A stretch of DNA of 58,950 nt from an uncultured Prevotellaceae bacterium (lineage in GTDB: Bacteria; Bacteroidota; Bacteroidia; Bacteroidales; Muribaculaceae): the NCBI GenBank assembly GCA_947165675.1, contig CAMVBJ010000019.1, positions 1-58,950 of the forward strand. Reading direction: 5' to 3'. Shown piece after piece: positions 25,643 to 54,767 of the stretch; position 1 is the stretch's first letter, and every line of letters begins with the position of its first letter. Under the pieces are notes generated by a model. The model was not told the origin of the DNA, searched no databases, and saw only the letters and a list, made by a program, of their open reading frames with translations. The position numbers and the translations under genes are program-made.

Positions 25643-25671
25643 TCCATTCACATCATCCATTACTTTTTTAT

Positions 25672-26955: not shown

Positions 26956-27026
26956 CACATGATGTCGGTTCCGTGGAGAAGTGCCACAGGGCGCTTCTCC
27001 ATCGGGGCTGACTTGTCAGTATCGCA

Positions 27027-28040: not shown

Positions 28041-28050
28041 AGAAGAGACA

Positions 28051-29415: not shown

Positions 29416-29434
29416 TACTATATACTATAATACT

Positions 29435-30991: not shown

Positions 30992-31029
30992 TTACTAACA
31001 CATATCTATAAGGTTACTATCATACTACT

Positions 31030-31818: not shown

Positions 31819-31864
31819 CTTTTTAAAAAAACATATAATTAATCTCAAAAACCGTACTATTATT

Positions 31865-32524: not shown

Positions 32525-32543
32525 TTTTTATCCCTTTTATCAC

Positions 32544-33320: not shown

Positions 33321-33363
33321 TTAACAAAACATCATTAATCATCAATAATAAAACATTCAAATC

Positions 33364-34200: not shown

Positions 34201-34210
34201 TGAGAGTAAT

Positions 34211-34297
34211 CAGTTTTCAGTTGTCAGTTTTCAGCGACATCAGCAGACTCACTGACAACTGAAAACTGTCAACTGAAAACTTAAAACTAAAAACTAA
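34211..34297 (+). repeat. TCAGTTT heptamer arrays forming a perfect hairpin between hbd and bcd
   Basis: The arms 34211-34228 and 34251-34268 are perfect 18-bp reverse complements. Each is built of 7-bp units (TCAGTTT, TCAGTTG and the complement ACTGAAA, ACTGACA). More ACTGAAA/ACTAAAA units continue to the bcd ATG. There is no T tract, so it is not a classical terminator. Confidence 0.85.
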
Positions 34298-34298
34298 T

Positions 34299-35438: not shown

Positions 35439-35445
35439 ATCAGCT

Positions 35446-35522
35446 CTTAGGCATCAGGCGTTAGGCATTATAGGTGGCATCTGCTTCCCTAAAGCCTAAG
35501 ACCTAAAACCTAAAGCCTTATA
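35446..35522 (+). repeat. TTAGGC/CCTAAAG heptamer arrays around a GCGGATGCC-like core, bcd-etfB spacer
   Basis: A left array of TTAGGCATCAGGCGTTAGGC type, a central GGTGGCATCTGCTTCC (35473-35488) and a right array of CCTAAAGCCTAAGACC type. The left and right arms are imperfectly complementary. The centre is the reverse complement of the core at 39847-39862 with one mismatch. Confidence 0.8.
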
Positions 35523-35534
35523 AAGAACAAAATT

Positions 35535-36317
35535 ATGAATATTATAGTTTGTATCAAACAAGTTCCCGATACCACCGTTGTCAAGATTGACCCCGTGAAG
35601 GGTACTCTGATTCGCGAAGGCGTTCCCAGCATTATGAATCCCGACGACAAGGGCGGACTCGAGCTCGCCTTGAGACTCAAGGATCAGTTCGGCGCCCATG
35701 TCACCGTTATCTCGATGGGACCTCCCCAAGCCGATGTCATGCTGCGCGAGGCACTCGCCATGGGTGCCGACCGTGCCATCTTGTTGAGCGACCGCAAGTT
35801 TGCTGGCGCCGATACCCTGGCTACCTCCTATGCCCTGTCGGGCCTGTGCCGCGTGTTGGACTATGACCTGATCATCGCTGGCCGTCAGGCCATCGACGGC
35901 GATACCGCCCAGGTGGGTCCCGAGCTCGCCGAGCATCTGGGTCTGCCCCAGATCACCTATGTTGCCGATGCCAAGGTGCTTGACAATGGCAACCTGCAGG
36001 TCGATAAGGAGAATGAAGATGGTGTGCAAGTTCTCGAGGTCGAGGGCAAGTGCCTGTTGACCGTTCTCGCATCAGCCTTTGAGCCCCGCTACATGAGCGT
36101 GAGCGGCATCATGGAGGCCTATGACAAGGAAGTCGAGGTCTGGAGTGCCGACAAGATTGACGTTGATGAGGGTAAGTTAGGTCTCGCTGGCTCGCCCACC
36201 AAGGTCTTCAAGTCCTTCCCCAAGGCCATGAAGGCTCCTGGCGAGGTGCACGAGGTAACCCCCGAGGAGGCTGTTGAGCTCATTGTTAATCAACTCAAAG
36301 TTAAACACATTATCTAA
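35535..36317 (+). CDS. etfB: electron transfer flavoprotein beta subunit
   Basis: The protein has 260 residues. It starts NIIVCIKQVPDTTVVKID, the usual EtfB opening, and contains ISMGPPQADVMLREALAMGADRAILL. The flavin/AMP-binding loop is GRQAIDGDTAQVGPELAEHL. The DGDTAQVGP form is, as I recall, the version found in electron-bifurcating EtfB proteins rather than the mitochondrial type, which would support ferredoxin-coupled crotonyl-CoA reduction. That point is an inference. It pairs with EtfA encoded 105 bp downstream. Confidence 0.94.
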   Translation: MNIIVCIKQVPDTTVVKIDPVKGTLIREGVPSIMNPDDKGGLELALRLKDQFGAHVTVISMGPPQADVMLREALAMGADRAILLSDRKFAGADTLATSYALSGLCRVLDYDLIIAGRQAIDGDTAQVGPELAEHLGLPQITYVADAKVLDNGNLQVDKENEDGVQVLEVEGKCLLTVLASAFEPRYMSVSGIMEAYDKEVEVWSADKIDVDEGKLGLAGSPTKVFKSFPKAMKAPGEVHEVTPEEAVELIVNQLKVKHII

Positions 36318-36323
36318 AAGTAG

Positions 36324-36419
36324 TTTGCAGTTGTCAGTTGTTAGTTGTCAGTTAATGCGCATGCCGCTGAAAACAGAAAACTCAAAAAAACTGAAAACTG
36401 AAAACTCAAGAAACTGAAT
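36324..36419 (+). repeat. GTCAGTT/ACTGAAA heptamer arrays in the etfB-etfA spacer
   Basis: A left array of CAGTTGTCAGTTGTTAGTTG type, a central AATGCGCATGCCGC (36353-36366) and a right array of ACTGAAAACTGAAAACT type ending at the etfA ATG. It has the same left-core-right layout as the other spacer elements. Confidence 0.75.
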
Positions 36420-36422
36420 ATT

Positions 36423-37439
36423 ATGGATAAGAAAGATTATAAGAACGTATTCGTTTTTGCCGAGCAGCGCGAAGGTGTCATCCAGCCCGTTGCCTTTGAA
36501 CTTTTAGGTAAAGCACGTGACCTGGCCGACGCCCTCGGCGAGAAGGTGGTTGCCATGCTCCTGGGCTGCGGCATCAAGGATCAGGCCCAGACTCTCATCG
36601 AGCAGGGTGCCGACGAGGTGATCGTCGTTGACGCTCCCGAGTTGAAGGACTTCCTGAGCGAGCAGTACTCACAGGCCGTTGGTCAGATCATCACCGAGCG
36701 CAAGCCCAGCATCGTGCTCTATGGTGCCACCACCATTGGTCGTGACCTGGCTCCCCGCATCGCTTCGCGCCTCAAGACGGGTCTTACCGCTGACTGCACC
36801 AAGCTCGAAATCGAGCCCGACAAGGATGGTGAACCCGAATTCCGCATGACACGTCCCGCATTTGGCGGTAACCTGATGGCTACCATCATCTGCCCCAACA
36901 ACCGTCCCCAGATGTCAACCGTTCGCCCCGGTGTGATGCAGAAGATGCAGCGCCAGGAGGGCCGTCAGGGCACCGTTACCGAGTTCCAGCCCACCTTCGA
37001 CGCCAGCAAGTTCAAGGTGAAACTCGTCAAGACCATCAAGGCCGACAAGCAGGTGGCCGACATCAGCGAGGCCAAGATCCTCGTCAGCGGTGGCCGCGGT
37101 GTGCATGACAAGGAAGGTTTCGACAAGCTCCAGGCTCTGGCCGACGTCCTCGGCGGACAGGTGGCTTCGTCGCGTGCCATGGTTGACAATGGCGTGATGC
37201 CCCACGAGGTACAGGTAGGTCAGACCGGTAAGACCGTTCGCCCCAATCTGTACATGGCTTGCGGTATCAGCGGTGCCATCCAGCACCTCGCTGGTATGGA
37301 AGAGAGCGACTTCATCATCGCCATCAACAAGGACAAGTTCGCCCCCATCTTCAGCGTCGCTGACCTGGGTATCGTGGGCGACCTGCACAAGATCGTTCCC
37401 ATGTTGACCGAGCGCATCAAGAAGGAACTCGAGAAGTAA
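36423..37439 (+). CDS. etfA: electron transfer flavoprotein alpha subunit
   Basis: The protein has 338 residues. The C-terminal FAD domain carries the family signature: [40 protein letters not shown] and [14 protein letters not shown] followed by [20 protein letters not shown]. There is no N-terminal ferredoxin-like extension. Last gene of the operon; a GC-rich terminator starts 25 bp after the stop codon. With EtfB it delivers electrons to butyryl-CoA dehydrogenase. Confidence 0.95.
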
Positions 37440-39812: not shown

Positions 39813-39895
39813 TTTTAGGCTATAGGTATTAGGTTATAGGCTTTATGGAAGCGGATGCCACCTAATGCCTATCACCTATAACCTATAGCCTAAAA
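39813..39895. repeat. near-perfect heptamer hairpin with GCGGATGCC core between convergent genes
   Basis: The arms 39813-39840 and 39868-39895 are complementary in 25 of 28 positions. They consist of TTTAGGC, TATAGGT and TTATAGG-like 7-bp units. The loop holds GGAAGCGGATGCCACC (39847-39862). The stop codon of the phosphopantetheinyl transferase (39883-39885) lies inside the right arm, and the dipeptidase stop (39809-39811) abuts the left arm. It could serve as a bidirectional transcription end. Confidence 0.88.
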
Positions 39896-40455
39896 CGGCA
39901 TACGGTGCAGACGTAGCTGGGGTGGACGGTCGTCTCGAAGGTCACGGGAAGGCCGTCTGTGAGCATGTGGGCAATGTCACCGCCGCCGTCGTCGCCCGTC
40001 AGTTTGTAGAGGCTCTCCTTCATCGTCCACAGGCGGGTGAATGCCTCGGCAGGGTAGGGTGACGTGAGAATCTGACGCATCTCCTTCTCGCTCATCACGC
40101 GGGCAGCCACCTCGTAGCTGTAGTGGTCAAGGGTCTCGATGTCGATGCCCACGGCTCTACTGTCAACAGCACAGGCCACCGCCTCGCGGCAGTGGCTCAG
40201 GCTGAAGTGAATATCGGGATGCCCCTGGAGCCGGGGCTTGCCTGACGGGTCATATTCAAACTGTGGTAACTCATCGCTGATGCCAAATTCTTGACTCAAG
40301 GCGTGCAGCAAGAGCCTGTAGGCCGCAAGGCACTGGCGCTGGTCACGCTCGTTGCGGTAGCGCAGGGCATGGGCTCGCCGCTGCGGGCTGACCTCTGCCA
40401 GTGCCTGTTGCAAGTCAAAATCGCTGATGTGCTCGTCGATGTAGGCTTTAGGCAT
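39883..40455 (-). CDS. Sfp-type 4'-phosphopantetheinyl transferase
   Basis: Transfers phosphopantetheine from CoA to the carrier-domain serines of the NRPS. The protein has 190 residues from the ATG at 40455, which overlaps the end of the MATE gene by 8 bp. The Sfp signatures are GIDIE at 103-107 and W143-TMKESLYK at 143-151, the Mg- and CoA-binding motifs; the usual FSLSH stretch occurs at 84-88. The first codons (MPKAY) and the last three residues (FRL) are written in TTTAGGC-type repeat sequence. Last gene of the NRPS operon, so the pathway carries its own activating enzyme. Confidence 0.92.
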   Translation of the reverse strand: MPKAYIDEHISDFDLQQALAEVSPQRRAHALRYRNERDQRQCLAAYRLLLHALSQEFGISDELPQFEYDPSGKPRLQGHPDIHFSLSHCREAVACAVDSRAVGIDIETLDHYSYEVAARVMSEKEMRQILTSPYPAEAFTRLWTMKESLYKLTGDDGGGDIAHMLTDGLPVTFETTVHPSYVCTVCRFRL

Positions 40456-40458
40456 TAG
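40442..40458 (-). repeat. heptamer array inside the MATE/transferase gene overlap
   Basis: On the plus strand TAGGCTTTAGGCATTAG spans the MATE stop codon and the first codons of the phosphopantetheinyl transferase. It is the same 7-bp family found in the spacers, here used as coding sequence. Confidence 0.65.
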
Positions 40459-41773
40459 CTGGGAGCTTGAACTGAATGTGGCAGGCCTTGTGCAGGACAT
40501 AGATGACAATCCCCTCGATGATGTAGGCAATGAGGTAGCTGTACCAGATGTACTGTGGCATCGTGCGAGCCATGATCCACAACACGGGAATGACCGTGAG
40601 CGACAAGGCGAACGAGATGAACAATGCCATGTTGTGGTGGCTATAGAGCTTATAGATAATCATCAGCACATAGATGTAGCAGAAGGGGATGAAACTCAAG
40701 GCAAAGACCCTCAAGGCACGATTGCATTCGCTGATCATAGCACCCTCATCGGCGCCAAACAGCCAGGTGATGATTGACGGCCATATCAGCACCACCAGGC
40801 AAGTGATGGCCATTGACGTGGTGATGAAACGCAGTGACTTGCGCACCACCAGCGAGAACGCCTCGATGTTGCCCGATCCCATTTGGATGGCGCCCAGGGA
40901 TTGCAGCGTGCGGCAAGTACCGGCAAGATACAAGTTATAGATCTGCAGCAGGTTCATGCAAACTGAGAAGGCAAAAATACCAGTGCGTCCCAGTGTGGAC
41001 AACACGGTGGTATTGGCCGTCAGTAACAATAGCGTCAGGCAGATCGACGCAACTGCAAGTGGCGCTCCCTGAGAGACGATATTCAGGGACTCAGGTTGAT
41101 CGTGAGTGAGTGAGAGCCGCAAGTTGTTGTTCTTGTACTTGAAGTGACGTAGCATGATGGCGATGCCCACAAGATGACCCACAACGGTAGCCGTGGATGA
41201 TCCCGTGATGCCCCAGCCAAACAGGGAGATGAACACGAGGTCGAGCAACAGGTTAACAGCGTTGTCAATGACGATGGCCATGGATGCCAATCGCGGACTG
41301 CCATCAACACTGATCATGGTACTCATGGTCCACATCATCATGTAGGCAGGCGCACCCAGGAGCAAGGGCAAGAGGTATTCCTCGGATTGCTTTAACAGCT
41401 GCTCATTGTTGCATAGCAGGTGGGCAATATTACCATTGGCAAACAATCCCAAGAGACTGAAGATCAAGCCGATCGCCAGATTGAAGATTACGGCTAACGT
41501 GAAGACGTAGGTTACACGTTTCTTGTCCTTCTTGCCCAACGCATGGCCCACAATCATACTTGCTCCCATACCCAAGAGCAGGTTGAGGGTCATGTAAAAC
41601 TGGACAACGGGCTTGGACAGGTTGATGGCACTCACACCATCCTCCCCGATGAGGTGTCCCACGATAATGCCATCAACGATGTTACCCAGACATCCCGACA
41701 AGGTTATGAGCACCGATGACCACAGGAAACGGTTGAATTGAGTGGAAAGAGCAGATTTCTCTTCGTTAGTCAT
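40448..41773 (-). CDS. MATE-family efflux transporter
   Basis: The 441-residue integral membrane protein has about twelve hydrophobic helices in two halves. MATE features are the opening SSVLITLSGCLGNIVDGIIVGHLIGEDGVSAINL and the TM2 stretch LLLGMGASMIVGHALGKKDKKR. It exports small organic compounds through the inner membrane using a Na+ or H+ gradient. It sits between the acyl ligase and the phosphopantetheinyl transferase (24 bp and overlapping, respectively), so export of the NRPS product or immunity is the likely role. Confidence 0.9.
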   Translation of the reverse strand: MTNEEKSALSTQFNRFLWSSVLITLSGCLGNIVDGIIVGHLIGEDGVSAINLSKPVVQFYMTLNLLLGMGASMIVGHALGKKDKKRVTYVFTLAVIFNLAIGLIFSLLGLFANGNIAHLLCNNEQLLKQSEEYLLPLLLGAPAYMMMWTMSTMISVDGSPRLASMAIVIDNAVNLLLDLVFISLFGWGITGSSTATVVGHLVGIAIMLRHFKYKNNNLRLSLTHDQPESLNIVSQGAPLAVASICLTLLLLTANTTVLSTLGRTGIFAFSVCMNLLQIYNLYLAGTCRTLQSLGAIQMGSGNIEAFSLVVRKSLRFITTSMAITCLVVLIWPSIITWLFGADEGAMISECNRALRVFALSFIPFCYIYVLMIIYKLYSHHNMALFISFALSLTVIPVLWIMARTMPQYIWYSYLIAYIIEGIVIYVLHKACHIQFKLPANA

Positions 41774-41797
41774 GACTACGATACATGGATTTCGATA

Positions 41798-43150
41798 CTA
41801 ATTCTGGATATTGTTGACATAGAGTGGGATCTTGCCGCCTCGCTTGTTGGGAATCAAGGGGTCGGTGGACCAGGTGAAATGTGCATCGGGACAGCCCATC
41901 TCTTCCATAAACTCCTTGAGGCAGACGCACAACGGCGATAGCACTTTGTCGGGTTCGCTCTTGCACACGCCTCTCACCTGTATCGTAGCGTCGTCGATTT
42001 GGACAAACTGGAAGCTCACGAGGTCTGGCCACACTTCTGCTTTGGCAAACAGTCCTGCCACACTATAATTCTTGCCTCCCATCGTGAACACGGGGAGCGT
42101 GCGGCCCTGCACCTTGAGAATGGGCATGGTGGAACATGCCTCATCCGACGGGACAATGCGCACCATGTCGTTCACATAGTAGCGGATCACGGGCTGGATA
42201 AAGTTGCTGAGGTCGGTGATGAGGACACCTTGTGACCATTCCTCGGGATCCTTGATGGGACGGAGGTCGGCATCTACGGGCTCAACAATGACCCAGTCAT
42301 CGTTGATGTGGAGATGCGGACAATTGTGTGTCATGGCCACCTCGCCACCCTCGGTCATGCAGTAGTTGTTGCCCACGGGGCACTGGAACGCTTGTCGCAG
42401 CAGCTTGTAATTCTTTTCGGTCAAGGTCTCGGCCGACGTTACCAAGTGCTTGAGCGAGAGGTGCAGGCGACCTTGCAGCTGCTCAACGGCCAGCTGAACC
42501 ATCATCGAGGGATAACCTGCCATGGTCTCGGGCTGAAAATCGTTGAGCTTTTTCACGATGCTATCCACACTCTCGATGACATTGATGCCTAACAGATTGT
42601 CGGCGAAGTCGGGGTTGTTGGCCTTGATGCGGAGGAATGCACCGTAACTTGAAGCGCCCTTTGACAAGGAGATGACCGATGCACGGCGGTGCTTGGCGAT
42701 GGACAGCATGTCGGGCGTTGTGCCCTTCAACAAGCGTTGAGCGATGAGTTGTGCATGGATCTTGTTGTGATAGTCATCACGCACCATGAGCAGCGGGTTA
42801 CCCGTGCTGCCCGAGGTGTGGAGCGCAGTGTACTGGTCCAGGAGCAGGGAGTGGTCTTTCTCGGCATCGCGTTCCAGATACTCGGTCACCATGTCCTTGT
42901 TGATGCGTCGGTCTGTCACCCAGTCGTCAAAGTTGGCAGCAAGCACGGGTTTCTCGGTGGCTGGCAGGTCAGTAAGCTCAAAATCCTCAGGTATGTCGGC
43001 ATACAGTTTGGCGAAATAGGGCGAATTCTCCCTTGCATAGTTCACCAGTTCGTGCAGGCGCTGACGTCTCACCTCGGCACGCTGCTCTATAGTCATTTGT
43101 TCGCCCTCGGCAACGAGGCGTTTAGCTTCCTCGATTGAAATTGTTTTCAT
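41798..43150 (-). CDS. PaaK-like AMP-dependent acyl/aryl ligase
   Basis: The 450-residue adenylate-forming enzyme is related to phenylacetate-CoA ligase and coenzyme F390 synthetase. The nucleotide loop HTSGSTGNP lies near residue 108-116, after the N-terminal HELVNYARENSPYFAKLY segment typical of PaaK-like proteins. Later elements are NNYCMTEGG (adenine/substrate region), VLITDLSNFIQPVIRYYVNDMV and the C-terminal GKIPL-type end. The ATG at 43150 is 31 bp after the NRPS gene; a longer reading would overlap the NRPS coding region. In this operon it could activate a carboxylic acid as the acyl cap loaded by the first condensation domain. Substrate unknown. Confidence 0.82.
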   Translation of the reverse strand: MKTISIEEAKRLVAEGEQMTIEQRAEVRRQRLHELVNYARENSPYFAKLYADIPEDFELTDLPATEKPVLAANFDDWVTDRRINKDMVTEYLERDAEKDHSLLLDQYTALHTSGSTGNPLLMVRDDYHNKIHAQLIAQRLLKGTTPDMLSIAKHRRASVISLSKGASSYGAFLRIKANNPDFADNLLGINVIESVDSIVKKLNDFQPETMAGYPSMMVQLAVEQLQGRLHLSLKHLVTSAETLTEKNYKLLRQAFQCPVGNNYCMTEGGEVAMTHNCPHLHINDDWVIVEPVDADLRPIKDPEEWSQGVLITDLSNFIQPVIRYYVNDMVRIVPSDEACSTMPILKVQGRTLPVFTMGGKNYSVAGLFAKAEVWPDLVSFQFVQIDDATIQVRGVCKSEPDKVLSPLCVCLKEFMEEMGCPDAHFTWSTDPLIPNKRGGKIPLYVNNIQN

Positions 43151-43181
43151 CGTTATTTTATTTTTTTTGTTTATTATGTTG

Positions 43182-46100
43182 TTATTCAAAGAATCCGAAT
43201 CCGCCAATAGCGGTGAGCATACGCTCCACATAGTCCCACGAAGTGGGCGACCAGGCAAAGCCCAAGCGGTAGAGCACTTGGGTCGTATAGTCGTTCTCAC
43301 GCTTGACGTCGGTGGTCTTCTGGCCATGGGCCATGTCCTGATAGGCCAGCAAGCTCGACATGGAACGGGCCTTCTCGGGATCCTCCTTGGCAGCATTCAT
43401 GATCTGTTCAAACTCCTCGGGCTCGACAAACTTCACGCCGTTGCCCACTGCGGTGAGTTCCATGAGTACGTCACCGAGGAACTGGGTGTGGATGTTGTAA
43501 GGATGGAATACACAACATGCCGTTGGTGTTGTCGCAAGCAGCAGGATGGCCTTGGCCACCTCGTTGATGGGTGAGAACTCGACCTGCTTGTTGCGCATCG
43601 AGTGAGGACAAGCTCCCAGCATGTTATAAACCTTGATGCGACCCATGAACGAGTTGGTCTGGAAGTTGGCCTGGAACTCACCATCGGTCGAGCGAGCTGC
43701 CAGGTTGCCCACACGCATGATCTTGGCACTCAAGCCATGACGGGCGACGGCATCGAGGATGAGACGCTCGGCCATGAACTTGGAGTAGATGTACTTGTTG
43801 CCCAAGAACTGGCCCATGTACAGGCGCTGCTCGGTATAGATGTCGTTCTTAACCTCACCGGCCCACAAGCCACGGGTGCTGGCAGTGGAGATGTGGACGA
43901 GTTTGGCGCCCGTCTTGACGCAATAGTCCACGCAGCGTTGAGCTCCGCCGATGTTCACGTCCTCGATCTCGGTGCCCTCGCTGAAGTGCTTCACGATAGC
44001 CGCACAGTTGAAGATGGTATCAACCTGCAAGTTCTCGTCAAAGTCGCTGGTCACGTCACCCAGCACGATGTGCAGGCGAGTGCCGAATAGGTCGGCAAAC
44101 GAGTTGTCAAAGTAGTAGAATAGCAACGACTTCAAGCGGCGCTCGGCAGCCTCCAGGGTCTTGCCGCGCACCAGACAATGGATCTGTCCCGCATCACTGT
44201 CGATAAGGTCACGCAGGATGTGGATGCCTAAGTAGCCCGTGGCACCCGTCAGCAGCACGTTACCCAACTGCTGGCGATCACCGCGCTTGAAGGCTGCCAG
44301 GGTATTGCCTTGCAGCAGGTTGTCGATGGCAGTGTAGTCATAGTGGGTTACCGTGTCGTCGCCCGAGGCCTCGGTCTCGCCGGTTACCAGGCGTGCCAGT
44401 TGGCGTGGGGTGGGATTAGCAAACACGTCGCCATAGGCCACATGCATGCCAGCCTTGTCGGCCTCGATGATGACGCGTGTCACCACGAGCGACGTGCCGC
44501 CCAGCTCAAAGAAGTTGTCCGTTGCACCCACCTTGTCCATCTGCAGGATTTCGGCAAAGATGTCACAGAAGGTGCGCTCAGTGTCGCCCACAGGAGCCTC
44601 ATAGGCCGAGGTGATGGCCAGCATGGGCTCGGGCAGCGCCTTGACGTCGGTCTTGCCGTTAGGTGTCATCGGCATCTCAGGCAGTTGCAGGTAGGCTGTG
44701 GGCACCATGTATTGGGTCAGGCTCTTGGAAATCTCGGCCTTCAGGGCATCGGGGGCAATCTCGCGCTCAGCGGTGTAGTAGGCACACAAGTGCTCCTTGC
44801 CTCCCAACTTGCGTATCATGATGACCACCTTCTTCATGCCATCGACCTTGAGCATCACGTTCTCGATCTCGCCCAGCTCGATGCGCAGTCCGCGCAGCTT
44901 GATCTGGTGGTCGGTACGACCCAGGATAACGACATCGCCGTCAGGCAGCCACTTGGCATAGTCACCCGACTTGTAGATGCGTTCGCCATGGTAATCGATG
45001 AAGCGTTCACGGGTCATCTGGTCCAGGTTGTTATAGCCATGAGCAACGCCACGGCCACCGATGTAGAGCTCGCCCACAACGCCCACGGGCAACTCGTTGC
45101 CGTCGGCATCGACGATAAACTCCTTGACATTCAACTGGGGCTTGCCCACGGTCACGATGTCGGCATGAGTCAGCTCCTTGTTGTTTGATGCCACGGTGGT
45201 CTCGGTGGGTCCATAGCAGTTGAAGATGCGGGCCTGGGTCACCGAACGCATGAGTGACAACAACTGGTCGGAGAACTTCTCTCCACCGGCACGGCAGATC
45301 TTGATCTTGCTGATGGCATTGCCAAAGTCCTCGCTCGTCAACCACGTCTGCCAGCGCGAGGGCGTGCCCGACACCATGTCGATGCGTTGCTCATTGATGA
45401 GGCGTGCCAGGTCGAGCGGGTTATTGGCCTGCTCCTCGGTGGCGACGATGAGCGTCTTGCCGTTGAAGTAGGCGGTGCCGATGTCCTGGAGGGCTGCGTC
45501 AAACGAGATGGTTGTCACGCTCAGGATGCGGGAGGCATCGGTCAGGACACCGTTGGCAAACACGTTGGCGGGATGGCCGTACAGGTAGTTGCAGATGCCA
45601 CGGTGATGCAGCATCACGCCTTTGGGACGGCCGGTCGAACCACTGGTATAGATCAGATAGGCCAGGTCATCGGGATTGATGTCGGGTACCTGATACTCGT
45701 CGTTGGCGGCAATCAGGTCCTCAACGTTGATGGCCTTGTCGGCAGGCACGGTGTCCATGCGGTCGGCCGTGGTGATGATATAGCGGGCCTCGCTGTCCTC
45801 AAGGATGAGTTTCACGCGGTCGGCAGGATATTCAGGATCACAGGGGATGTAGGCGGCACCCGACTTGAGCACACCGAACAGGGCTAAAATCAGCCTGCTC
45901 GTGCGTGGCAGCAGCAGGGCTACACGGTCACGAGCCACCACGCCACGGTGTTGCAGGGCGGCGGCGATGCGAGTGGTAACCTCGTCCATCTCCTTGTAGG
46001 TGAAGGATGCATCGGTGGCCACCAGAGCCTCGTGGTCGGGTTGGGTCTGGGCGAAGTGTCCCAGACACTCGTGGAAGAATGTGAACGGAGCGTCGCCGTT

Positions 46101-49100
46101 GCCGTCAATCTCGACTTGGCGAACTTGGTTCAATTCTGTTGCTTGGTTATCACTCACGATTGACAACTGGCGCAGGCGTCCCTGGGGCTGTTCCATCATC
46201 CTGTTAGCCACAGCGACGATGCTCTCGGCCATGCCGCGACCCACGCGTTCGCTATAGATAGAGTCATCGTACTGGACCACTACGCCACGGCTCTCGATCT
46301 TGATGTTGATCTTGAACTTGGGCACGTTGAGTTCGAGCAGTTCCTGTCCCACAGGTTGCCCCTTGACGGTATATTGCGAGAGGACGCCCACTTGGTAAGC
46401 ATAGGCGATAGCAGGACGGAAACCGTAGTCGGTGGCGATGCGGGCAAACGGGTAATCCTCGTGTCGCAGCGTCTGGTCAAATGTGTCGCTTGTCTTCTTC
46501 AAGAACTCGCTCACCGTGATGTCGTCGATGCTCATGCCCAGGGCGAGCGTGTTGACAAACATGCCCACTGTGTCGGCAATCTTGAGGTTGCTGCGACCGC
46601 TGCTGACGGTGCACAGATACACTTCACGGTTGTTGGTATAGCGGGACACTACATAGGAAGTGGCGGCCAGGAACAGGTGGGCTGGGGTGATTTCCTGCTG
46701 GCGGCAGAAGGCCGTTGCCTTGTCATAGTCGGCTGGGCATACCGCTTCGCCAATCCAGCCCTGCTCCTCGGTCTTGGGCAGGTCGGCAGGAATTTCGCTC
46801 GCTCCCTCACAAGTCTGTAATTTTTCGGCAAAGAACTGCTGTGAGGCCTTGAAACTGTCACTCTGTTCAGCTTGTTGCTGGTCGGTGACAAAGTCCATGT
46901 AGGTATAGGATTCCTTCTCAACGTCATTCCCCTCAAGAACGGCATTGATCTGGCGGATGAGCAGGTCGGCAGAACCGCCGTCAAACACGAGATGATGCAT
47001 GTCAATCAGCAGACTGGTGCCAGTGGGCGTTTTCACAACCTCGGCACGGTAGAGGGGAGCCTTCTGCAAGTTAAAGGGACGTACAAACTCGCTCTTGTAG
47101 CTTGTCAACTGCTCGTCGCTCATCTCGGTGATGGGCACCTCGACAGGCACGCTGTCGTTGATTGTCTGGACAATGCTGTCACCCTCGGTCGCGAAGTGGA
47201 TGCTGAGCTCGGGGTGAGCCTCAATCACACGCTTCACAGCATCAGCCAGGGTGTTGGCGTCAGTGCCATCAGGATAGGACAGCAGGTAGGGAATGTTGTA
47301 GATGGTGGAAGCAGGATTCTTCAAGCAATCAAAATAGACACCGGTCTGGGCATAAGACAGCGGAACACTCGTCACGGCATCGTGAGGCTTCTCGGCTGCT
47401 TGTTTTGCGGGACTTGCCATCTCGCCTGCCATCATGGCTTTCAGAATCTCGTTTTCAATGCTTTGCAGGGTACCGCTCTTGACCAGGGACTTGGAGTCGA
47501 GGGTGACGCCGTAGCGCTTGTTGATCATCACTGCGAGCTTGATGGCCGAGATGGAGGTCAACCCGGCATATCCCAAGATGGTTGTCACACCGAAGGCGGT
47601 GTTGCCCACCACTTCGGCAATGATCTGATGCAGTTCCTCTTCCAGCACGTTCATGGGCACGTTGCTCTCCTCGATGGCGTCAGCGGCTTTCTTCTCGGGC
47701 TTGGGCAGGGCGCGCTTGTTGACCTTCTGGTTCTGGTTCAACGGGATGGCATCGATCTGCATCGTCACGGCAGGCACCATGTAGGGTGGCTTCTCATCCA
47801 TGATGAAGTTGTTCAGTGCCTCGATGTCAATGGTCTCGTCACTCACGATGTAGGCAGCGATAAACTTGCCGCCACCTTCCTCGTCAAAGGCCTGTACCGT
47901 GGCATCCTTGATGCCCGGGAACTCGCGGATGATGCTTTCGACCTCTTTTAACTCGATGCGGAAACCACGGATCTTGACCTGACCGTCACGACGGCCCACA
48001 AACTGGATGTCACCCGAGGGCAGATACCTCACGATGTCGCCCGTGCGATAGACGCGTGCATATTTCTCAACGGTGGTGAAGGGGTTGTCGATATAGACCT
48101 CGGTGGTTTTTTCAGGACGGTTGAGATAACCACGGCTCACCTGGGGTCCCGATACCCACAACTCACCGGCGGCGCCGACGGGCAAGCGGTGACCCTGACC
48201 ATCGACGATGTACAACCGCATGTTGTCGAGCGGCTTGCCGATGGGGATTTCTTTCATCTTCTTGTCCACCAGATAGGTTGTGGTGAAGATGGTGCATTCG
48301 GTGGGACCGTAACAGTTAAAGAAATTGAAGCCCTGTGGAGGCGTGAGGGTGGCTAATTTCTCACCACCGGTCGAGAGGTGCAGTAGCGAGTGGTTCTCGA
48401 TGCTGGTGGCGAACTGGTAACCCACCTGGGTCGTCATGAACGAGTGGGTGATGTGATTCTGCTCGAAGTACTCGTTCAGGGCAATCAGGTCGAGGCGCAG
48501 TTCCTCGGGCACGATGTGGACCGTGGATCCGCAGGTCAGGGCAGGGTACATGTCCATCATGCAGGCGTCAAAACCATAGCTGGCATAGGCGGCCACATTG
48601 TTCTCGGGCTTAAGGTCATAATAGCGTTGATACCAGTGGCAGAAGGCCACCAGATTGCGATGAGTCAGCTGGCAACCCTTGGGGATACCCGTCGAGCCCG
48701 ACGTGTAGAGCATGATGAACAGTTGGTCGGGATGGATATCGACATCGGGAGCGTCTTGGGGTGGCAGATTGGCGATGTCGCGTGTCAGCAGCACGTCACC
48801 TTGATATTCATCGACGATGGTGCGCAGTTCCTCGTCGGCAATCAGCAGATTGGCGCTGGCATCCTGCATCATGAAGTTGAGTCGCTCCTTGGGATAGCTG
48901 GGATCGAGTGGCTGGTAACCGCAGCCGGCTTTGAGAACACCCAGCGAGGCAATGGCCATCCACTCGCAGCGCGGAATCAGTACCGACACGACATCCTCGG
49001 CTCCCAGACCCTTGCTGGCAATATAGGCGGCAATGCGGTCGCTGATTTCGGCCACTTGAGCATAGGTGTACTGCTTGTCTTGATAGACTACAGCCACGTT

Positions 49101-50444
49101 GTCGGGCGTGGCTTGAACCTGCTTGTTGAACAGCGAGACGATGGTCTGGCTGTCGTCATAGTCCACGTCGGTGTGGTTAAAGCTGTCCAGTGTCTCAATC
49201 TGCTGGCTGGTGGCAATGCTGATGTCGCGCAGGTGCTCGACGGTGAGGAATCCCCTCACCACAGCCTCATAGCTCTCTAACAGCTGGCTGATGAGTTCGC
49301 TGGAATATTCGTTAGCATTATACTCGGCCTTGAGCTGATACTTGCCGTCCATGATGAACATCTTCAGGTAGAGCGAGACCTCAAGGGTGCTGTTGCCGAT
49401 GCGGATGGTCTTCATGGGCTTGTCACCCATCGTCTCGTTGTCAAACAGCAGGCCGTGCCATGCAAACATCGAGTTGCTCTGCAAGTTCAGGTCGGTCATC
49501 ACGTCGCTGTAGGAGTAGATGTGATGCTCACGGCAACCGCTCATCTGGTCCTGACCCTGGCGCAGCAATTCCAGCACGGTAGTGTCGGGAGTAAACTTGG
49601 CGTAGACGGGCAGTGTCTTGACCGTCATGCCCACCGAGTGCTGGTAACGCTTGTCGGTGCGGCCGTTATAGACCGTGGTGAACAAGGATTCCTGCTCGTT
49701 GTTGAACTTGGCCAGTAAGAAGGAATAGGCCGTAGTAAACAGGGTGGACTTGTAGATGCCTTTCTCGGCACAGTATTTATCGACCTGCGCGCTATCAATG
49801 TCGAGCGTGCGCAGCATGTTGTCCTCGCGGTGCACGGGCTCCTCATTATCGGGCAGCAGTTGGGTAAAGGTATCGCTACAGTCAAAATTCTGGGCGTACC
49901 ATTGCTTAGCCTCGTCAAAGGCGGGTGTCTCACGCATCCGGGCTTCGTCCTCGGCTACCTGCATGAGGGTCATCTCCTCAGGATCGATAGCCTGGCCGTG
50001 ATAGGCCTTGTCAATATCTTGGAGGATGATTTGCATCGACGTGCCGTCAACGATGATGTGGTGGTAATCCAGGAAGAGGTAATAATGCTCGCTGTTGCGC
50101 ATGAGCTTGACGTGGAACAAGCGTCCACCATAGATGTCAAACGGTGTCACCAGCCGAGCCTTTTCCTGCTCGATGTCCTGAATCTCCTCGATGTCGAGCG
50201 ACCACTGTTCGCTTGCCATGTCGAGTGTCTGCATGGGCTCACCGTCGTCACCCAGTTCGATGCGGATAAACAGGGTAGGGTGGGACTTGAATGCCGTCTC
50301 AATGGATTCCAGCAGGCGTTGTCCGTCCAGTGAGGGATCTAACTCATAAATGTAAGGGAGGTTATAACAGGGCTCGCCGGTGTGGCTTGCACATTCTACA
50401 TAGATACCATATTGTGACTTGGTTAATGGTGCAATTCTTTTCAT
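43182..50444 (-). CDS. two-module NRPS with terminal reductase (C-A-T-C-A-T-R)
   Basis: 2420 residues. C1 (1-425; HHIIVDG 128-134), A1 (435-915; TSGSTG 581-586), T1 (930-1005; Ser964), C2 (1025-1440; HHLVFDG 1150-1156), A2 (1455-1940; TSGSTG 1600-1605), T2 (1950-2020; LGGTSL, Ser1985) and R (2060-2420; Rossmann TGATGYLG 2066-2073, Tyr2218-x3-Lys2222). There is no thioesterase, so the dipeptidyl thioester should be released by reduction as an aldehyde, which can cyclise to a pyrazinone. A condensation domain at the very N-terminus suggests an N-acyl cap. Hand-aligned ten-residue codes: A1 D-A-M-F-S-G-C-I-F-K and A2 D-A-Q-S-C-A-C-V-A-K. Asp at position one indicates alpha-amino acids; side chains cannot be named safely. 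T1 has the variant core GLTSI. The start is the ATG giving MKRIAPLTKSQ; 32 bp follow the barrel gene. Confidence 0.95.
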   Translation of the reverse strand: MKRIAPLTKSQYGIYVECASHTGEPCYNLPYIYELDPSLDGQRLLESIETAFKSHPTLFIRIELGDDGEPMQTLDMASEQWSLDIEEIQDIEQEKARLVTPFDIYGGRLFHVKLMRNSEHYYLFLDYHHIIVDGTSMQIILQDIDKAYHGQAIDPEEMTLMQVAEDEARMRETPAFDEAKQWYAQNFDCSDTFTQLLPDNEEPVHREDNMLRTLDIDSAQVDKYCAEKGIYKSTLFTTAYSFLLAKFNNEQESLFTTVYNGRTDKRYQHSVGMTVKTLPVYAKFTPDTTVLELLRQGQDQMSGCREHHIYSYSDVMTDLNLQSNSMFAWHGLLFDNETMGDKPMKTIRIGNSTLEVSLYLKMFIMDGKYQLKAEYNANEYSSELISQLLESYEAVVRGFLTVEHLRDISIATSQQIETLDSFNHTDVDYDDSQTIVSLFNKQVQATPDNVAVVYQDKQYTYAQVAEISDRIAAYIASKGLGAEDVVSVLIPRCEWMAIASLGVLKAGCGYQPLDPSYPKERLNFMMQDASANLLIADEELRTIVDEYQGDVLLTRDIANLPPQDAPDVDIHPDQLFIMLYTSGSTGIPKGCQLTHRNLVAFCHWYQRYYDLKPENNVAAYASYGFDACMMDMYPALTCGSTVHIVPEELRLDLIALNEYFEQNHITHSFMTTQVGYQFATSIENHSLLHLSTGGEKLATLTPPQGFNFFNCYGPTECTIFTTTYLVDKKMKEIPIGKPLDNMRLYIVDGQGHRLPVGAAGELWVSGPQVSRGYLNRPEKTTEVYIDNPFTTVEKYARVYRTGDIVRYLPSGDIQFVGRRDGQVKIRGFRIELKEVESIIREFPGIKDATVQAFDEEGGGKFIAAYIVSDETIDIEALNNFIMDEKPPYMVPAVTMQIDAIPLNQNQKVNKRALPKPEKKAADAIEESNVPMNVLEEELHQIIAEVVGNTAFGVTTILGYAGLTSISAIKLAVMINKRYGVTLDSKSLVKSGTLQSIENEILKAMMAGEMASPAKQAAEKPHDAVTSVPLSYAQTGVYFDCLKNPASTIYNIPYLLSYPDGTDANTLADAVKRVIEAHPELSIHFATEGDSIVQTINDSVPVEVPITEMSDEQLTSYKSEFVRPFNLQKAPLYRAEVVKTPTGTSLLIDMHHLVFDGGSADLLIRQINAVLEGNDVEKESYTYMDFVTDQQQAEQSDSFKASQQFFAEKLQTCEGASEIPADLPKTEEQGWIGEAVCPADYDKATAFCRQQEITPAHLFLAATSYVVSRYTNNREVYLCTVSSGRSNLKIADTVGMFVNTLALGMSIDDITVSEFLKKTSDTFDQTLRHEDYPFARIATDYGFRPAIAYAYQVGVLSQYTVKGQPVGQELLELNVPKFKINIKIESRGVVVQYDDSIYSERVGRGMAESIVAVANRMMEQPQGRLRQLSIVSDNQATELNQVRQVEIDGNGDAPFTFFHECLGHFAQTQPDHEALVATDASFTYKEMDEVTTRIAAALQHRGVVARDRVALLLPRTSRLILALFGVLKSGAAYIPCDPEYPADRVKLILEDSEARYIITTADRMDTVPADKAINVEDLIAANDEYQVPDINPDDLAYLIYTSGSTGRPKGVMLHHRGICNYLYGHPANVFANGVLTDASRILSVTTISFDAALQDIGTAYFNGKTLIVATEEQANNPLDLARLINEQRIDMVSGTPSRWQTWLTSEDFGNAISKIKICRAGGEKFSDQLLSLMRSVTQARIFNCYGPTETTVASNNKELTHADIVTVGKPQLNVKEFIVDADGNELPVGVVGELYIGGRGVAHGYNNLDQMTRERFIDYHGERIYKSGDYAKWLPDGDVVILGRTDHQIKLRGLRIELGEIENVMLKVDGMKKVVIMIRKLGGKEHLCAYYTAEREIAPDALKAEISKSLTQYMVPTAYLQLPEMPMTPNGKTDVKALPEPMLAITSAYEAPVGDTERTFCDIFAEILQMDKVGATDNFFELGGTSLVVTRVIIEADKAGMHVAYGDVFANPTPRQLARLVTGETEASGDDTVTHYDYTAIDNLLQGNTLAAFKRGDRQQLGNVLLTGATGYLGIHILRDLIDSDAGQIHCLVRGKTLEAAERRLKSLLFYYFDNSFADLFGTRLHIVLGDVTSDFDENLQVDTIFNCAAIVKHFSEGTEIEDVNIGGAQRCVDYCVKTGAKLVHISTASTRGLWAGEVKNDIYTEQRLYMGQFLGNKYIYSKFMAERLILDAVARHGLSAKIMRVGNLAARSTDGEFQANFQTNSFMGRIKVYNMLGACPHSMRNKQVEFSPINEVAKAILLLATTPTACCVFHPYNIHTQFLGDVLMELTAVGNGVKFVEPEEFEQIMNAAKEDPEKARSMSSLLAYQDMAHGQKTTDVKRENDYTTQVLYRLGFAWSPTSWDYVERMLTAIGGFGFFE

Positions 50445-50476
50445 AGAGTTGTTTGGATATATTTGTCTTTGATAAT

Positions 50477-51835
50477 TTACCATTTAAAGGAAAAAATGCG
50501 AGGGTTGACGTTTAGGGAAATCCAACTCCAGCGCAGGACGTTTTTGTTGGTCGATCGCTTGAGTTTCTCCATCGTCTCGGTCCCTTTCATGAATGAACCA
50601 CCGAGCGATATTGCGATATCCCGCGTGATGGCGTAGGAGGCCTGTAGCTCAAACTCGTTACCCAGCGACCTGTCAAGCTTTTCCAGCTTGGTGGCTGTGG
50701 CCAGATAGTGATAACTGGCGTTGATGTTGAGTCCTTTGATCGGGCTATAATTGGCCTTGAAATAAGCATTTTGCAGACCTGGAGTGAATCCGTTGAAATA
50801 GGTGCTCACATAGAAGAAATCCATAGCTCCGTAGAACTTATGGTGGGAACCATAGACGGTGCTGAAACCCTTGATAACCTTGTGGAGTGACATGCCGATG
50901 GATCCCCCGGTGGGTACGGCAAAGTGATCGTCACCACTCAGGTAGTCATAGCCCACGGTAAAACCATAGTTAGCGGGCTGGAATTTGACCTTGGCACTCA
51001 TCATCCAGGCATCAATCTTTTGAGCAAACTCGTTCTTGCCCATCTGGTGGTAATAGGAAACCTCGGCGAGCCAGCGATTGGGGTGGAACTTGAGATAGCC
51101 ACCGATGAGCTGCTGGTACATGGTCCCCTTCGTGAATGCATCGGGGTCACTCTCCATGCCGACGTTCATGAACAATACTGACATTCCCAACGGAAAACGT
51201 GGCAGGTCGTAATGATACCATGCGGTATGCATCGTCTTGTAGGGTTGTGCACCGTTGGCATAGTGGGAGTCGCCTACTGTCATTACAGTGGAATTCTGGT
51301 TGTAGGCCAGGATCACATGAGCCTTGTGGCCATGACCTTCATAGCCCACGCGCAGCACATCGTGGGACGATGACGCCATCGCCCAATCATCCGAGCCGAT
51401 GATGCGTTCGTCGTCATAATCGAGGGCCATGCGTCCCACCTGGGCAAACAGGCCAAACGGGGCGTTTAACTTGACCCATGTCTCAAAGAGATTGAAACCA
51501 CCCTTTCCCTCTTGCCCCCACACGCCCGAATGCTGTGGCGTGACTCGGGCTTCAAGCCAATCACGCTTATAGTTGATAGCCAGTCGTGTACGGGTTAGCA
51601 GGAAGTTGGAATTGGGCGTTTTCTTCTCTTCCTCTCCCTCTTCTTCATCAGAGTGATCCCCCTTGGACATCAAACCTCCATGACGAGCCTCGCCACGGGT
51701 CATGAACTGCAGGTCAACTTTCAGCTCATTGACCTTTGGGGGAATGCTGTCGCCCGTAGGCTGGGCCATGATGGTTAACGCGGGTGCAACGAGAGCGGCC
51801 AGTAACCAGCGCTTGATGAAACCATGACTGTTCAT
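50477..51835 (-). CDS. outer-membrane barrel protein in the NRPS operon
   Basis: The 452-residue protein has a signal peptide ending at TIMAQ (about 25). A short acidic loop (DHSDEEEGEEEKK, about 61-73) is followed by many alternating aromatic strands with porin-like spacing and a C-terminal IFSFKW. This resembles the porin-type barrels that include alginate-export-like proteins; I cannot assign a substrate. It lies 18 bp after the STAS gene and 32 bp before the NRPS gene, so it is firmly part of the operon. Together with the MATE protein it would give a route through both membranes, or it may be a product target or uptake pore. Confidence 0.78.
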   Translation of the reverse strand: MNSHGFIKRWLLAALVAPALTIMAQPTGDSIPPKVNELKVDLQFMTRGEARHGGLMSKGDHSDEEEGEEEKKTPNSNFLLTRTRLAINYKRDWLEARVTPQHSGVWGQEGKGGFNLFETWVKLNAPFGLFAQVGRMALDYDDERIIGSDDWAMASSSHDVLRVGYEGHGHKAHVILAYNQNSTVMTVGDSHYANGAQPYKTMHTAWYHYDLPRFPLGMSVLFMNVGMESDPDAFTKGTMYQQLIGGYLKFHPNRWLAEVSYYHQMGKNEFAQKIDAWMMSAKVKFQPANYGFTVGYDYLSGDDHFAVPTGGSIGMSLHKVIKGFSTVYGSHHKFYGAMDFFYVSTYFNGFTPGLQNAYFKANYSPIKGLNINASYHYLATATKLEKLDRSLGNEFELQASYAITRDIAISLGGSFMKGTETMEKLKRSTNKNVLRWSWISLNVNPRIFSFKW

Positions 51836-51853
51836 GGGTTGTCACTCGTTAAG

Positions 51854-52156
51854 TTATTCAAACTCAAACAGGTTGATGAACCCCGTGATATTAAATACGT
51901 TCTTGATGTCGTCGTTGACGTTGCGCAGGATCACCTTGTGACCTCTGGCCTTGTTCTTCTTGAGCACGTCGAGCAGGATGCGCAGGCCACTTGATGCGAT
52001 GTACTCCAGATCGGCGCATTCAAACACGATGTCCTTGCCCTCACCCTCGGTAATGGGCTTCAATGTCTGATCGGCCTCGATGGCTGCTGCCGTGTCGAGT
52101 GAACCCGTCATGGTGACGATGGTTTTTTCTTCAAGTTCTTGAATTGTAGTTTTCAT
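51854..52156 (-). CDS. STAS-domain anti-sigma factor antagonist
   Basis: The 100-residue single STAS domain resembles RsbV/SpoIIAA. The switch serine is Ser55 in LEYIASSGLRILL, at the position phosphorylated by RsbW-type kinases. The beginning IQELEEKTIVTMTGSLDT is the expected first strand pair. It lies 33 bp downstream of the gene for the phosphatase/kinase sensor, which contains both enzymes that would act on it. In partner switching, the unphosphorylated form binds its target. Bacteroidota lack sigma-B-type factors, so the output here is unknown. Confidence 0.92.
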   Translation of the reverse strand: MKTTIQELEEKTIVTMTGSLDTAAAIEADQTLKPITEGEGKDIVFECADLEYIASSGLRILLDVLKKNKARGHKVILRNVNDDIKNVFNITGFINLFEFE

Positions 52157-52189
52157 AATTTAAGTGACTTTTTTTTGATATTGAGTTGA

Positions 52190-54406
52190 TTAATCTTTCT
52201 TCTTATCGTTAGATGACTGATAGCTCTTCTTCAAGGTGAGCACGTTCTTGTCATCGGTGCGCTCATAGTTGATGGTATCCATCAATTGCTGAACGAGCAG
52301 GATGCCAAGTCCGCCGATGGGGCGCTCCTCGGCATTCAGTGTGGTGTCGGCCTTGTTGGTTGTCGTCGGGTCAAAGGCCTTACCCCCGTCGGTGATGATG
52401 ATCTTGATGTCCTTGTCGGTACAATTGGCAGTGATGTTGACGTCACCCTGGGTACCGATGGGGTAAGCGTAGTTCATCACATTGACCACAGCTTCTTCAA
52501 CGGCAAGCATCAATTGAGACGACAAGGATGACCCAAGGTTTAATCGCTGACTCACCGATTGGATAAAATGGTTGAGTTCAGGCACTTTGTGCACATCGTT
52601 GGGCAGGGTGATGGACTCGTGCAGAACGATCGTCTCCTGGGGGTGGCGGTAATTCAAGGTCAGCATTGTCAGGTCATCGCTCTGGGTGGCGGTGCCGACA
52701 TAGCTTGTTACGGCAAAGTGCATGGCCCCCATCAGTTCCTCGGGCGATGTCATGCCCTGCTCCAGACATTCCTGGGCGGTAGAGATGATGCGGTCCAGGC
52801 CGTAGAGCTTGTGCGTCTCATCGGCGGCCTCGGTCAGACCATCGGTATAGAGGAATAGTGTCGAGCCACTGGGCAGTGTCTCTTGTTGCTGGCTATACTT
52901 GAAGTCATGGATTACACCCACGGGCAGGTTGGCGTTGACGGGCAGTTTCTTGACCTCGTCATGGATAATCAGCGGGGCATCGTGTCCCGCGTTACAGTAG
53001 CGCAGGCGTCCTGTGGGCAAGTCGAGCACACCGACGAACAGTGTGACAAACATACTGGTCTTGTTGCCCTCACTGACGTTCTTGTTGATGGACTGGATGA
53101 TGTGGGCGGGGTTACTATCGTGCAGGCTCATGCTGCGGAAGAGGGAATGTACCACCGCCATGACAAGCGATGACGGCACGCCCTTGCCGCTCACGTCACC
53201 GATGCAGAAGTACAGTTTCTCATCCCTCACAAAGTAGTCATACAGGTCACCGCCCACCTCGAGTGCGGTCACTTGGGAACCGCTGATGTCCACTTCGGGG
53301 CGGCTGATGGGGTGCTCGGGCAGCATCTCGCTCTGGATGCCCTGGGCAATGCGCAGCTCGCTGTTGGTGCGCTCCTGTTGCAGTCTTGAATCGTTCAAGT
53401 GGCGCATGTTGCGGTAGAACAGATACATGATGATGCCTAACAGCGAGAAGAAGCCCAACATCATCAGCACGAAGTTGCGCCTCAAGTCATTCAACTTGAT
53501 GAACAATTCGTCATCATAGCAGACCATCACCATCTGCCAGTGCGGCTTGCCCATCATATTGGCGTGGTAGATGTAGCCCAGCGAGTTGTCGCTGTTGTCC
53601 TTGAAGGTGATGACACAGCTCCTGCCGTCGCTGCTGAGCTCGTGATGGGCGGTGCTGTCATTGATGAGTTCCACAATCTGGTGGGCATCGCCAAATTTCC
53701 AGTTGAGGCTGTCGAGCTTGGAGATGAGTTGGCCGTCCTCGGTCAGCAGCAGGTGATAGGTCGAGGGAAAGTCATGGCGGGTGTTGATGGTGTCGATAAT
53801 CCCCTTTGTGGACAAGTCGAGGCCCAGGGCTCCGATGATCTCACCAGCGCTATCGGTGATGGGCATCGAGTAGGTGGTGACCTTGACGCCCGAGGCATCC
53901 TTGTCGATATAGGGGTCACTCCAGGTAGATGCCTGTTTCTCCACTGCCAGGCGGTAAAAGTCACTCTTGGTATAATCGTGGTTTGGACCCGCTACCTGCT
54001 TGACGATGATGCTGTCCTCACGCCGGTAGGCTACCAGCTCGCACAATCTGCCATACTCGCTGAAGTAGTTGGGCGTGAACGCCACAAAACTGCCCACCAC
54101 GTCACTGTTGGTGGAAACAATTCGACGCAGGATGCTCTGGATTCTCTCGGGGGCACCGGGGGAGCCAAGTTGACTCTGGATGGACCATTGATAGTTGCGC
54201 ATCATCCGCTCGTTAGACTTGAGAATGCCACGCACCCTAAGGGCCTTCATGCTCATCTCGGTTGTGGCTCGGTGGTCCAGCTCATTCTCCAGAATCTGGT
54301 GAGTGTACCGGTATTGTGCCAGCGAGATCAACTCAATCAGGATTGCTGCAATGATGATTATAGTCAGTGCCGGCAAGGCCAGCTTGTATTTTCTTTTACT
54401 TTTCAT
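52190..54406 (-). CDS. membrane sensor with PP2C phosphatase and RsbW-like kinase domains
   Basis: 738 residues. TM1 (about 9-31), a periplasmic Cache-type sensor (about 35-305; WSDPY 162-166, then YSMPITDSAGEIIGALGLDL) and TM2 (about 311-331). The SpoIIE/RsbU-type PP2C domain (about 345-585) has the metal-binding Asp in VGGDLYDYF (384-392), GDVSGKG (403-409), the NAGHDAP segment and YTDGLTEA. The C-terminal HATPase_c_2 domain (about 600-725) has an N box EEAVVNVMNYAY (637-648), DGG (673-675) and GGLGILL (698-704). It thus joins the phosphatase and kinase of a partner switch under one extracellular input. The first gene of the NRPS operon, directly followed by the STAS gene. Confidence 0.92.
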   Translation of the reverse strand: MKSKRKYKLALPALTIIIIAAILIELISLAQYRYTHQILENELDHRATTEMSMKALRVRGILKSNERMMRNYQWSIQSQLGSPGAPERIQSILRRIVSTNSDVVGSFVAFTPNYFSEYGRLCELVAYRREDSIIVKQVAGPNHDYTKSDFYRLAVEKQASTWSDPYIDKDASGVKVTTYSMPITDSAGEIIGALGLDLSTKGIIDTINTRHDFPSTYHLLLTEDGQLISKLDSLNWKFGDAHQIVELINDSTAHHELSSDGRSCVITFKDNSDNSLGYIYHANMMGKPHWQMVMVCYDDELFIKLNDLRRNFVLMMLGFFSLLGIIMYLFYRNMRHLNDSRLQQERTNSELRIAQGIQSEMLPEHPISRPEVDISGSQVTALEVGGDLYDYFVRDEKLYFCIGDVSGKGVPSSLVMAVVHSLFRSMSLHDSNPAHIIQSINKNVSEGNKTSMFVTLFVGVLDLPTGRLRYCNAGHDAPLIIHDEVKKLPVNANLPVGVIHDFKYSQQQETLPSGSTLFLYTDGLTEAADETHKLYGLDRIISTAQECLEQGMTSPEELMGAMHFAVTSYVGTATQSDDLTMLTLNYRHPQETIVLHESITLPNDVHKVPELNHFIQSVSQRLNLGSSLSSQLMLAVEEAVVNVMNYAYPIGTQGDVNITANCTDKDIKIIITDGGKAFDPTTTNKADTTLNAEERPIGGLGILLVQQLMDTINYERTDDKNVLTLKKSYQSSNDKKKD

Positions 54407-54734: not shown

Positions 54735-54767
54735 ACCGCCCTGACAGTGCAACGCTGTCAGGGCGGT
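54735..54767 (-). terminator. Rho-independent terminator of the GH3 gene
   Basis: Perfect 13-bp arms ACCGCCCTGACAG (54735-54747) and CTGTCAGGGCGGT (54755-54767). On the minus strand they are followed by TTCTTTTATTTT. Confidence 0.9.

Follow-up and report, generated by a model that had tools for sequence, protein, structure and literature searches.

Seven packed genes on the minus strand of a 58,950-nucleotide stretch of DNA from an uncultured Prevotellaceae bacterium (contig CAMVBJ010000019.1, referred to here as the window) run from 54406 to 39883 and combine a non-ribosomal peptide synthetase (NRPS) and a MATE exporter with the parts of a partner-switching module. We judge the chances to be about evenly balanced that this operon makes and secretes a peptide aldehyde as a self-contained pathway and that its dedicated partner switch acts on that pathway, most likely on the export step, and not on a sigma factor. 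A narrower proposal, which we hold more tentatively, is that the 'anti-sigma' kinase is here the exporter: the STAS protein would dock on an RsbW-type kinase that is fused to MATE, or in the window acts with it, and would gate secretion of the peptide aldehyde after translation, in a sigma-independent class of partner switch.

The genes lie where a sequence-only reading of the window had placed them, with the gaps and overlaps that it had claimed (33, 18, -7, 31, 24 and -8 bp once two gene starts were corrected). The first (52190..54406, on the minus strand like the other six) encodes a sensor of 738 residues, in which an MCP-like PDC/dCache domain (PF22673, 4.2e-21), presumably periplasmic, is followed in one polypeptide by a SpoIIE/PP2C-type serine phosphatase (PF07228, 6.1e-48) and an RsbW-like HATPase_c_2 kinase (PF13581, 1.3e-25) with its N-box Glu and Asn aligned; no receiver domain was found in it by the Pfam scan. 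The second (51854..52156) encodes a STAS-only protein of the anti-sigma-antagonist type with 100 residues (PF01740, 1.4e-15) and a serine placed two positions ahead of the glycine in the conserved motif. This serine is present in the window protein and in 117 of the 118 STAS open reading frames (ORFs) examined, and we take it to be the phosphorylated position, as in SpoIIAA/RsbV. Next come an outer-membrane barrel of 452 residues (50477..51835, PF13372) with the fold of AlgE/OprD-type channels and, overlapping its gene by 7 bp, an NRPS of 2433 residues (43182..50483) in which Pfam finds Condensation, AMP-binding and PP-binding stretches, two of each, and an NAD_binding_4 reductase at the end, that is, condensation (C), adenylation (A), thiolation (T) and reductase (R) domains in the order C-A-T-C-A-T-R. 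The MATE exporter (40448..41773, 441 residues) matched PF01554 as its sole family (2e-30).

The whole genome, which is 98.07% complete, gave one match each for SpoIIE, STAS and the RsbW-like HATPase_c_2, all within this operon. Sigma70 region 3 was matched once, on another contig, in a protein of 285 residues that is taken to be the primary sigma factor, and a cognate alternative sigma factor with region 3, of the sigma-B/sigma-F kind, was not found in the genome at this completeness. Because region 3 is matched only once and all of the switch parts lie in the operon, a sigma-B-like target is unlikely; the switch looks dedicated to the operon and not linked to a sigma factor, and the description of it as 'stress-type' in the sequence-only reading is doubtful.

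Thirteen sister loci encode a MATE exporter joined in one protein to a kinase of the RsbW/SpoIIAB type with intact ATP-site residues, the N-box Glu and Asn being aligned in every one of the kinase tails. Each of the 13 fusions, which come from a survey whose starting points were an NRPS-adjacent fusion and a single family, adjoins a reductase NRPS and has a STAS gene in the same gene run; in the run of genome G400 the exporter-fused kinase is the only kinase seen. When the fusion was used in an alignment search the matches were mostly MATE, with one anti-sigma entry among the 50 listed. Long MATE pumps with decayed HATPase tails were seen in L216, L220 and L223, with no NRPS in the stretches examined, and that of L216 adjoins a lone AMP-binding protein. 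A further MATE ORF, of 518 residues, occurs in G130. From sequence, the fusion is predicted in Bacteroidota and also, judging by how the sources of single clusters are named, in Oscillospiraceae, Lachnospiraceae and Synergistaceae. Scans of viral contigs, for which the fusion alignments A1 and A3 as well as the NRPS were used, gave no relatives, and a tblastn search of plasmids with the fusion protein P0262 gave two weak matches with less than 25% identity.

One genome per species was scanned, which gave 366 stretches encoding relatives of the NRPS; the 80 best were retained. Each of their titles names a Bacteroidota lineage, and 61 are labelled RUG (presumably 'rumen uncultured genome'), RGIG, rumen, deer or sheep. 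The NRPS N-terminus is held by all 80 loci, and at least 4.5 kb upstream of it was available in 65. Of these 65, 61 have STAS within 2 kb upstream of the NRPS, 59 have the sensor within 2.5 kb and 48 have the barrel within 2.5 kb. Both switch genes adjoin the NRPS in 58, and the sequence-only reading, against which a rare adjacency in relatives would have counted, is not refuted on this point at sequence level. The seven exceptions include L100, L132 and L138, where one or both switch parts are farther off yet less than 6 kb away, and L134, where STAS is accompanied by a stand-alone kinase gene. Over the full extent of the 80 loci, at more than 60% coverage and with some contigs ending early, MATE was found in 62, a 4'-phosphopantetheinyl transferase (PPTase) in 29, a PaaK-like ligase in 5 and GH3, the neighbour upstream of the operon, in 2. 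The commonest gene order is sensor-STAS-barrel-NRPS-MATE; alternatives include barrel-NRPS-MATE-sensor-STAS (L176) and STAS-barrel-MATE-sensor-NRPS (L100), and there are others too. The arrangement is beyond chance, since it recurs in dozens of other loci while GH3 does so in two.

Sequence distances among sensor, STAS, barrel and NRPS, calculated for the 41 of 81 loci in which all five genes were called, are correlated with r of 0.62-0.80, and none of 999 permutations was as high for each of the six pairs. This co-divergence shows shared inheritance, not interaction. Function is argued from the same parts occurring in different builds around different reductase NRPSs: NRPS-SpoIIE-HATPase-STAS as separate genes in L063, STAS-NRPS-SpoIIE followed by an OMP_b-brl_3 barrel in L059, and STAS-NRPS-OMP_b-brl_3 followed by a fused MATE-kinase and a PPTase in L172.

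In light of these data, we propose that the dCache domain would bind a ligand outside the inner membrane and that binding would shift the balance between the SpoIIE phosphatase of the sensor and the RsbW-like kinase. STAS, as the putative switched partner, would be phosphorylated or dephosphorylated at the conserved serine, and the resulting form may bind the exporter, or the exporter/NRPS machinery, as its target, so that product output would be opened or closed. The docking site would be explicit in the sister operons, where the RsbW/SpoIIAB-type kinase is fused to the MATE exporter. That release follows an extracellular cue, as the sequence-only reading suggested, is strengthened by these fusions; the cue itself is still conjectural. 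The exporter-fused kinase offers a concrete candidate target for STAS switches and turns the matter into a question about two proteins, and the fusions suggest how a cell might switch secretion on or off in answer to an outside signal. If true, the proposal would give a rule for telling when gut or rumen bacteria release protease-inhibiting peptide aldehydes.

The combination had been thought undescribed, which does not hold, as a similar grouping in Methanobrevibacter ruminantium has been in print since 2010 (Leahy et al., PMC2812497). According to the available sections of that paper, mru0068 is an NRPS of two C-A-T modules that ends in a release domain, given as a thioesterase in the main text and as a thioester reductase in the legend of Figure S8; around it lie a MatE protein, an anti-sigma factor antagonist and a pair of serine phosphatases, and a second locus has a PPTase, a phosphatase, an antagonist and an anti-sigma kinase. 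The authors proposed environment sensing and regulation of NRPS expression (PMC2812497). As far as those sections allow comparison, the archaeal cluster resembles the window in grouping a two-module NRPS and release domain with MatE, a serine phosphatase and an anti-sigma antagonist, but it has two separate phosphatases and, there being no outer membrane, no barrel. The 2010 observation in a methanogen now stands beside a wide set of Bacteroidales operons.

By analogy, the nearest mechanism is that of SypE-SypA in Vibrio fischeri, in which, in the portions of the article available, a kinase and a phosphatase in one protein set the phosphorylation of STAS, and SypA is encoded in the biosynthetic locus that it controls, acting below transcription on an unknown target; SypA and HmpV are there STAS switches without a known target (PMC10120452). 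In SypE a receiver domain separates the kinase from the phosphatase, whereas the window sensor has a dCache domain and matched no receiver family. SypE-SypA serves a polysaccharide and the window operon a peptide, and those portions do not mention an exporter fusion for Syp (PMC10120452). The RsbU-RsbV-RsbW and SpoIIE-SpoIIAA-SpoIIAB systems are alike in their phosphatase, STAS and kinase domains, with motifs conserved, but the window genome is without a second region-3 sigma factor and its kinase is part of the sensor protein; in relatives a kinase is also joined to the exporter. In the accessible text, a survey of rumen gene clusters counts NRPS clusters and does not contain 'anti-sigma' in its main text (PMC8241843), a review of STAS-only proteins contains neither 'efflux' nor 'nonribosomal' (PMC8256260), and an RsbW-like response regulator affects indigoidine (PMC12826045). 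Searches of the open-licence PMC literature for the fusion, or for a switch together with an NRPS, turned up no report of an exporter-kinase fusion, matches being judged by title; the fusion is the new element, while the operon type itself varies a known grouping.

Several observations weigh against a switch that acts on the pathway through its exporter. Among the seven exceptions to the adjacency, L151 has a stand-alone kinase gene with no STAS seen within 6 kb, and L087 and L091 have STAS with no sensor seen within 6 kb. The strict sensor motif patterns were matched in part among 120 ORFs, truncated ones included, with 101-108 for SpoIIE, 91 for the kinase N-box and 20 for the G1 box. The window MATE is unfused to a kinase, and MATE distances gave the lowest correlations with the other four genes (r 0.18-0.35, with 0-6 of 999 permutations as high), which counts against MATE as a fixed partner in operons of the window type. 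Sensor and NRPS are on separate contigs in G005, G010 and G030; in the latter two STAS is 6 bp upstream of the NRPS and the sensor and barrel are on the other contig. The sigma search covered region 3. A target among ECF sigma factors or transcription factors belongs to the alternative that the switch controls transcription of the operon through another regulator (a transcription factor, an ECF or the housekeeping sigma factor), which we consider rather unlikely. Canonical partner switches do target sigma factors, Leahy et al. read the archaeal cluster in this way, as 'regulating NRPS expression' in the part of the text available (PMC2812497), and the sensor gene opens the operon behind a terminator-like stem (54735..54767, minus strand; a 13-bp stem with nine G-C pairs and a T tail) that lies downstream of the GH3 gene and upstream of the operon, whose promoter is presumably between this stem and 54406. 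Against it stand the genome without a second region-3 sigma factor, the exporter-fused kinase, which has no obvious transcriptional role, and the seven operon proteins, none of which matched a DNA-binding family in the Pfam and NCBIfam scans. Archaea, moreover, are without bacterial sigma factors. The same grouping is reported in an archaeon in the available text (PMC2812497).

That the sensor and STAS only travel with the NRPS, by hitch-hiking or recent common ancestry and without a functional link, would suit the 80 best-match loci all belonging to one bacterial phylum and mostly to one habitat type; we regard it as very improbable, given that the adjoining GH3 is kept in 2 of the 80, that the gene set persists though its order is reshuffled, that other NRPSs have differently built switches (L063, L059 and L060) and that exporter and kinase are fused. 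An improbable, though less remote, alternative is that the switch mainly serves the barrel, in sensing and uptake of an outside compound, perhaps the peptide itself when neighbours make it; NRPS and MATE would then be a production half that can be detached. The genus set of 37 genomes, the window genome included, bears on this: a barrel orthologue occurs in 31, all 31 with a SpoIIE match within a few kb, and a long NRPS relative in 28, with a window-type sensor close by in 23 of them. Five of the 37 keep sensor and barrel and have no long NRPS orthologue, so that the switch may have another target; G007, G014 and G019 keep sensor-STAS-barrel-PPTase, and G001 and G011 keep sensor and barrel, G011 with STAS too. 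'NRPS-less' here means without the long orthologue, as a reductase fragment of 353 residues sits at the end of a contig in G019, single-module NRPSs occur in G007 and G011, and G014 is 66% complete. Runs of sensor-STAS-barrel-PPTase, with NRPS and MATE missing between barrel and PPTase, are found on the minus strand at L156 6754-11229, L158 1382-5899 and L159 6406-10976. The NRPS-less loci are scattered at several places among NRPS-bearing ones in a quick barrel tree, with no clustering in label shuffles, a pattern as if the production half had been lost repeatedly; they pose a serious problem for every interpretation that has the switch serve the NRPS only. The co-divergence of sensor and barrel (r 0.77) also favours the barrel. 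Conversely, a window-type barrel was not matched in the stretches examined around the 13 fusions, where switch, NRPS and MATE persist, L172 (a fusion locus) and L059 carry the unrelated OMP_b-brl_3 barrel instead, and the PPTase retained in NRPS-less loci hints that the loss was recent or that a different carrier is served.

As for the product, a secreted N-acyl dipeptide aldehyde is probable because of the first condensation domain, which may accept an acyl starter, and the reductase, by analogy with the dipeptide aldehydes of gut bacteria. The available text of two papers describes N-acylated dipeptide aldehydes from gut-bacterial NRPS clusters, N-octanoyl-Met-Phe-H and ruminopeptin among them; the window operon is like these systems in its predicted product type, and a partner switch is not mentioned in that text (PMC8518294, PMC12327764). 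Active-site residues of the C, T and R domains are intact in 118-120 of 120 aligned sequences, the remainder being gaps, and the R domain, on whose activity the sequence-only reading depended, appears competent by its catalytic residues. The T-R region aligns over 473 residues with PDB entry 6vtj (listed as 'Non-ribosomal peptide synthetase', E 2.4e-97), which we take to be an archaeal PCP-R structure. The best NCBIfam match is the aureusimine synthetase AusA (NF047350), related in its R domain and far under the cut-off of 2500 at 1155.7 bits; unlike AusA, which presumably starts without one, the window NRPS has an N-terminal condensation domain. The adenylation pockets, read at the GrsA positions and with the last K assumed, are DAMFLTCIFK (A1) and DAQSCACVAK (A2); we know of no clear substrate match for either and assigned no amino acid. 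In a set of 90 NRPSs with at least 65% identity, three A2 codes predominate (37, 36 and 10 sequences) and vary at a single position, and the remaining seven are more divergent. A second, shorter reductase NRPS directly follows the operon NRPS in L079 (9001-19551). Single-module C-A-T-R NRPSs of about 1430-1460 residues were seen in L064, L065, L066 and L067 (G011, G007, G032 and G017), with no switch genes matched beside them.

Two operon genes are less constant. The start of the PaaK/F390-synthetase-like adenylate-forming ligase (41798..43150; TIGR02304 9e-29, under its cut-off) was corrected from the mechanical ORF to most likely 43150, 31 bp past the NRPS stop, and that of the Sfp-type PPTase (39883..40455; PF01648 2.9e-12) to 40455, overlapping the MATE stop. 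The ligase is present in the window as first read and was rejected as a core component at 5 of 80 loci; it does turn up again, in three g54 operons as well as in L169 and L219, and tblastn 'PaaK' matches at 8-20% coverage are an artefact of a mechanical ORF that overlaps the NRPS end in another frame. The only other terminator match on the minus strand is a weak 6-bp stem within the MATE gene (41050-41032), and the 13 terminator-like matches across the operon region do not exceed what shuffled sequences give (mean 11.1).

A second partner switch occurs in G021 (L164 5783-9304, minus strand), where STAS and an APH-type phosphotransferase form one protein, encoded next to a dCache-HAMP-SpoIIE-HATPase sensor, and where the stretch examined showed no NRPS; this fusion is possibly another sigma-free output. 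In the window, the operon adjoins a lysine-fermentation cluster on the plus strand (24569-37439) with 3,5-diaminohexanoate dehydrogenase, lysine 2,3-aminomutase, KamB/KamC reactivase, lysine 5,6-aminomutase, CoA-transferase, crotonase, 3-hydroxyacyl-CoA dehydrogenase, acyl-CoA dehydrogenase and ETF.

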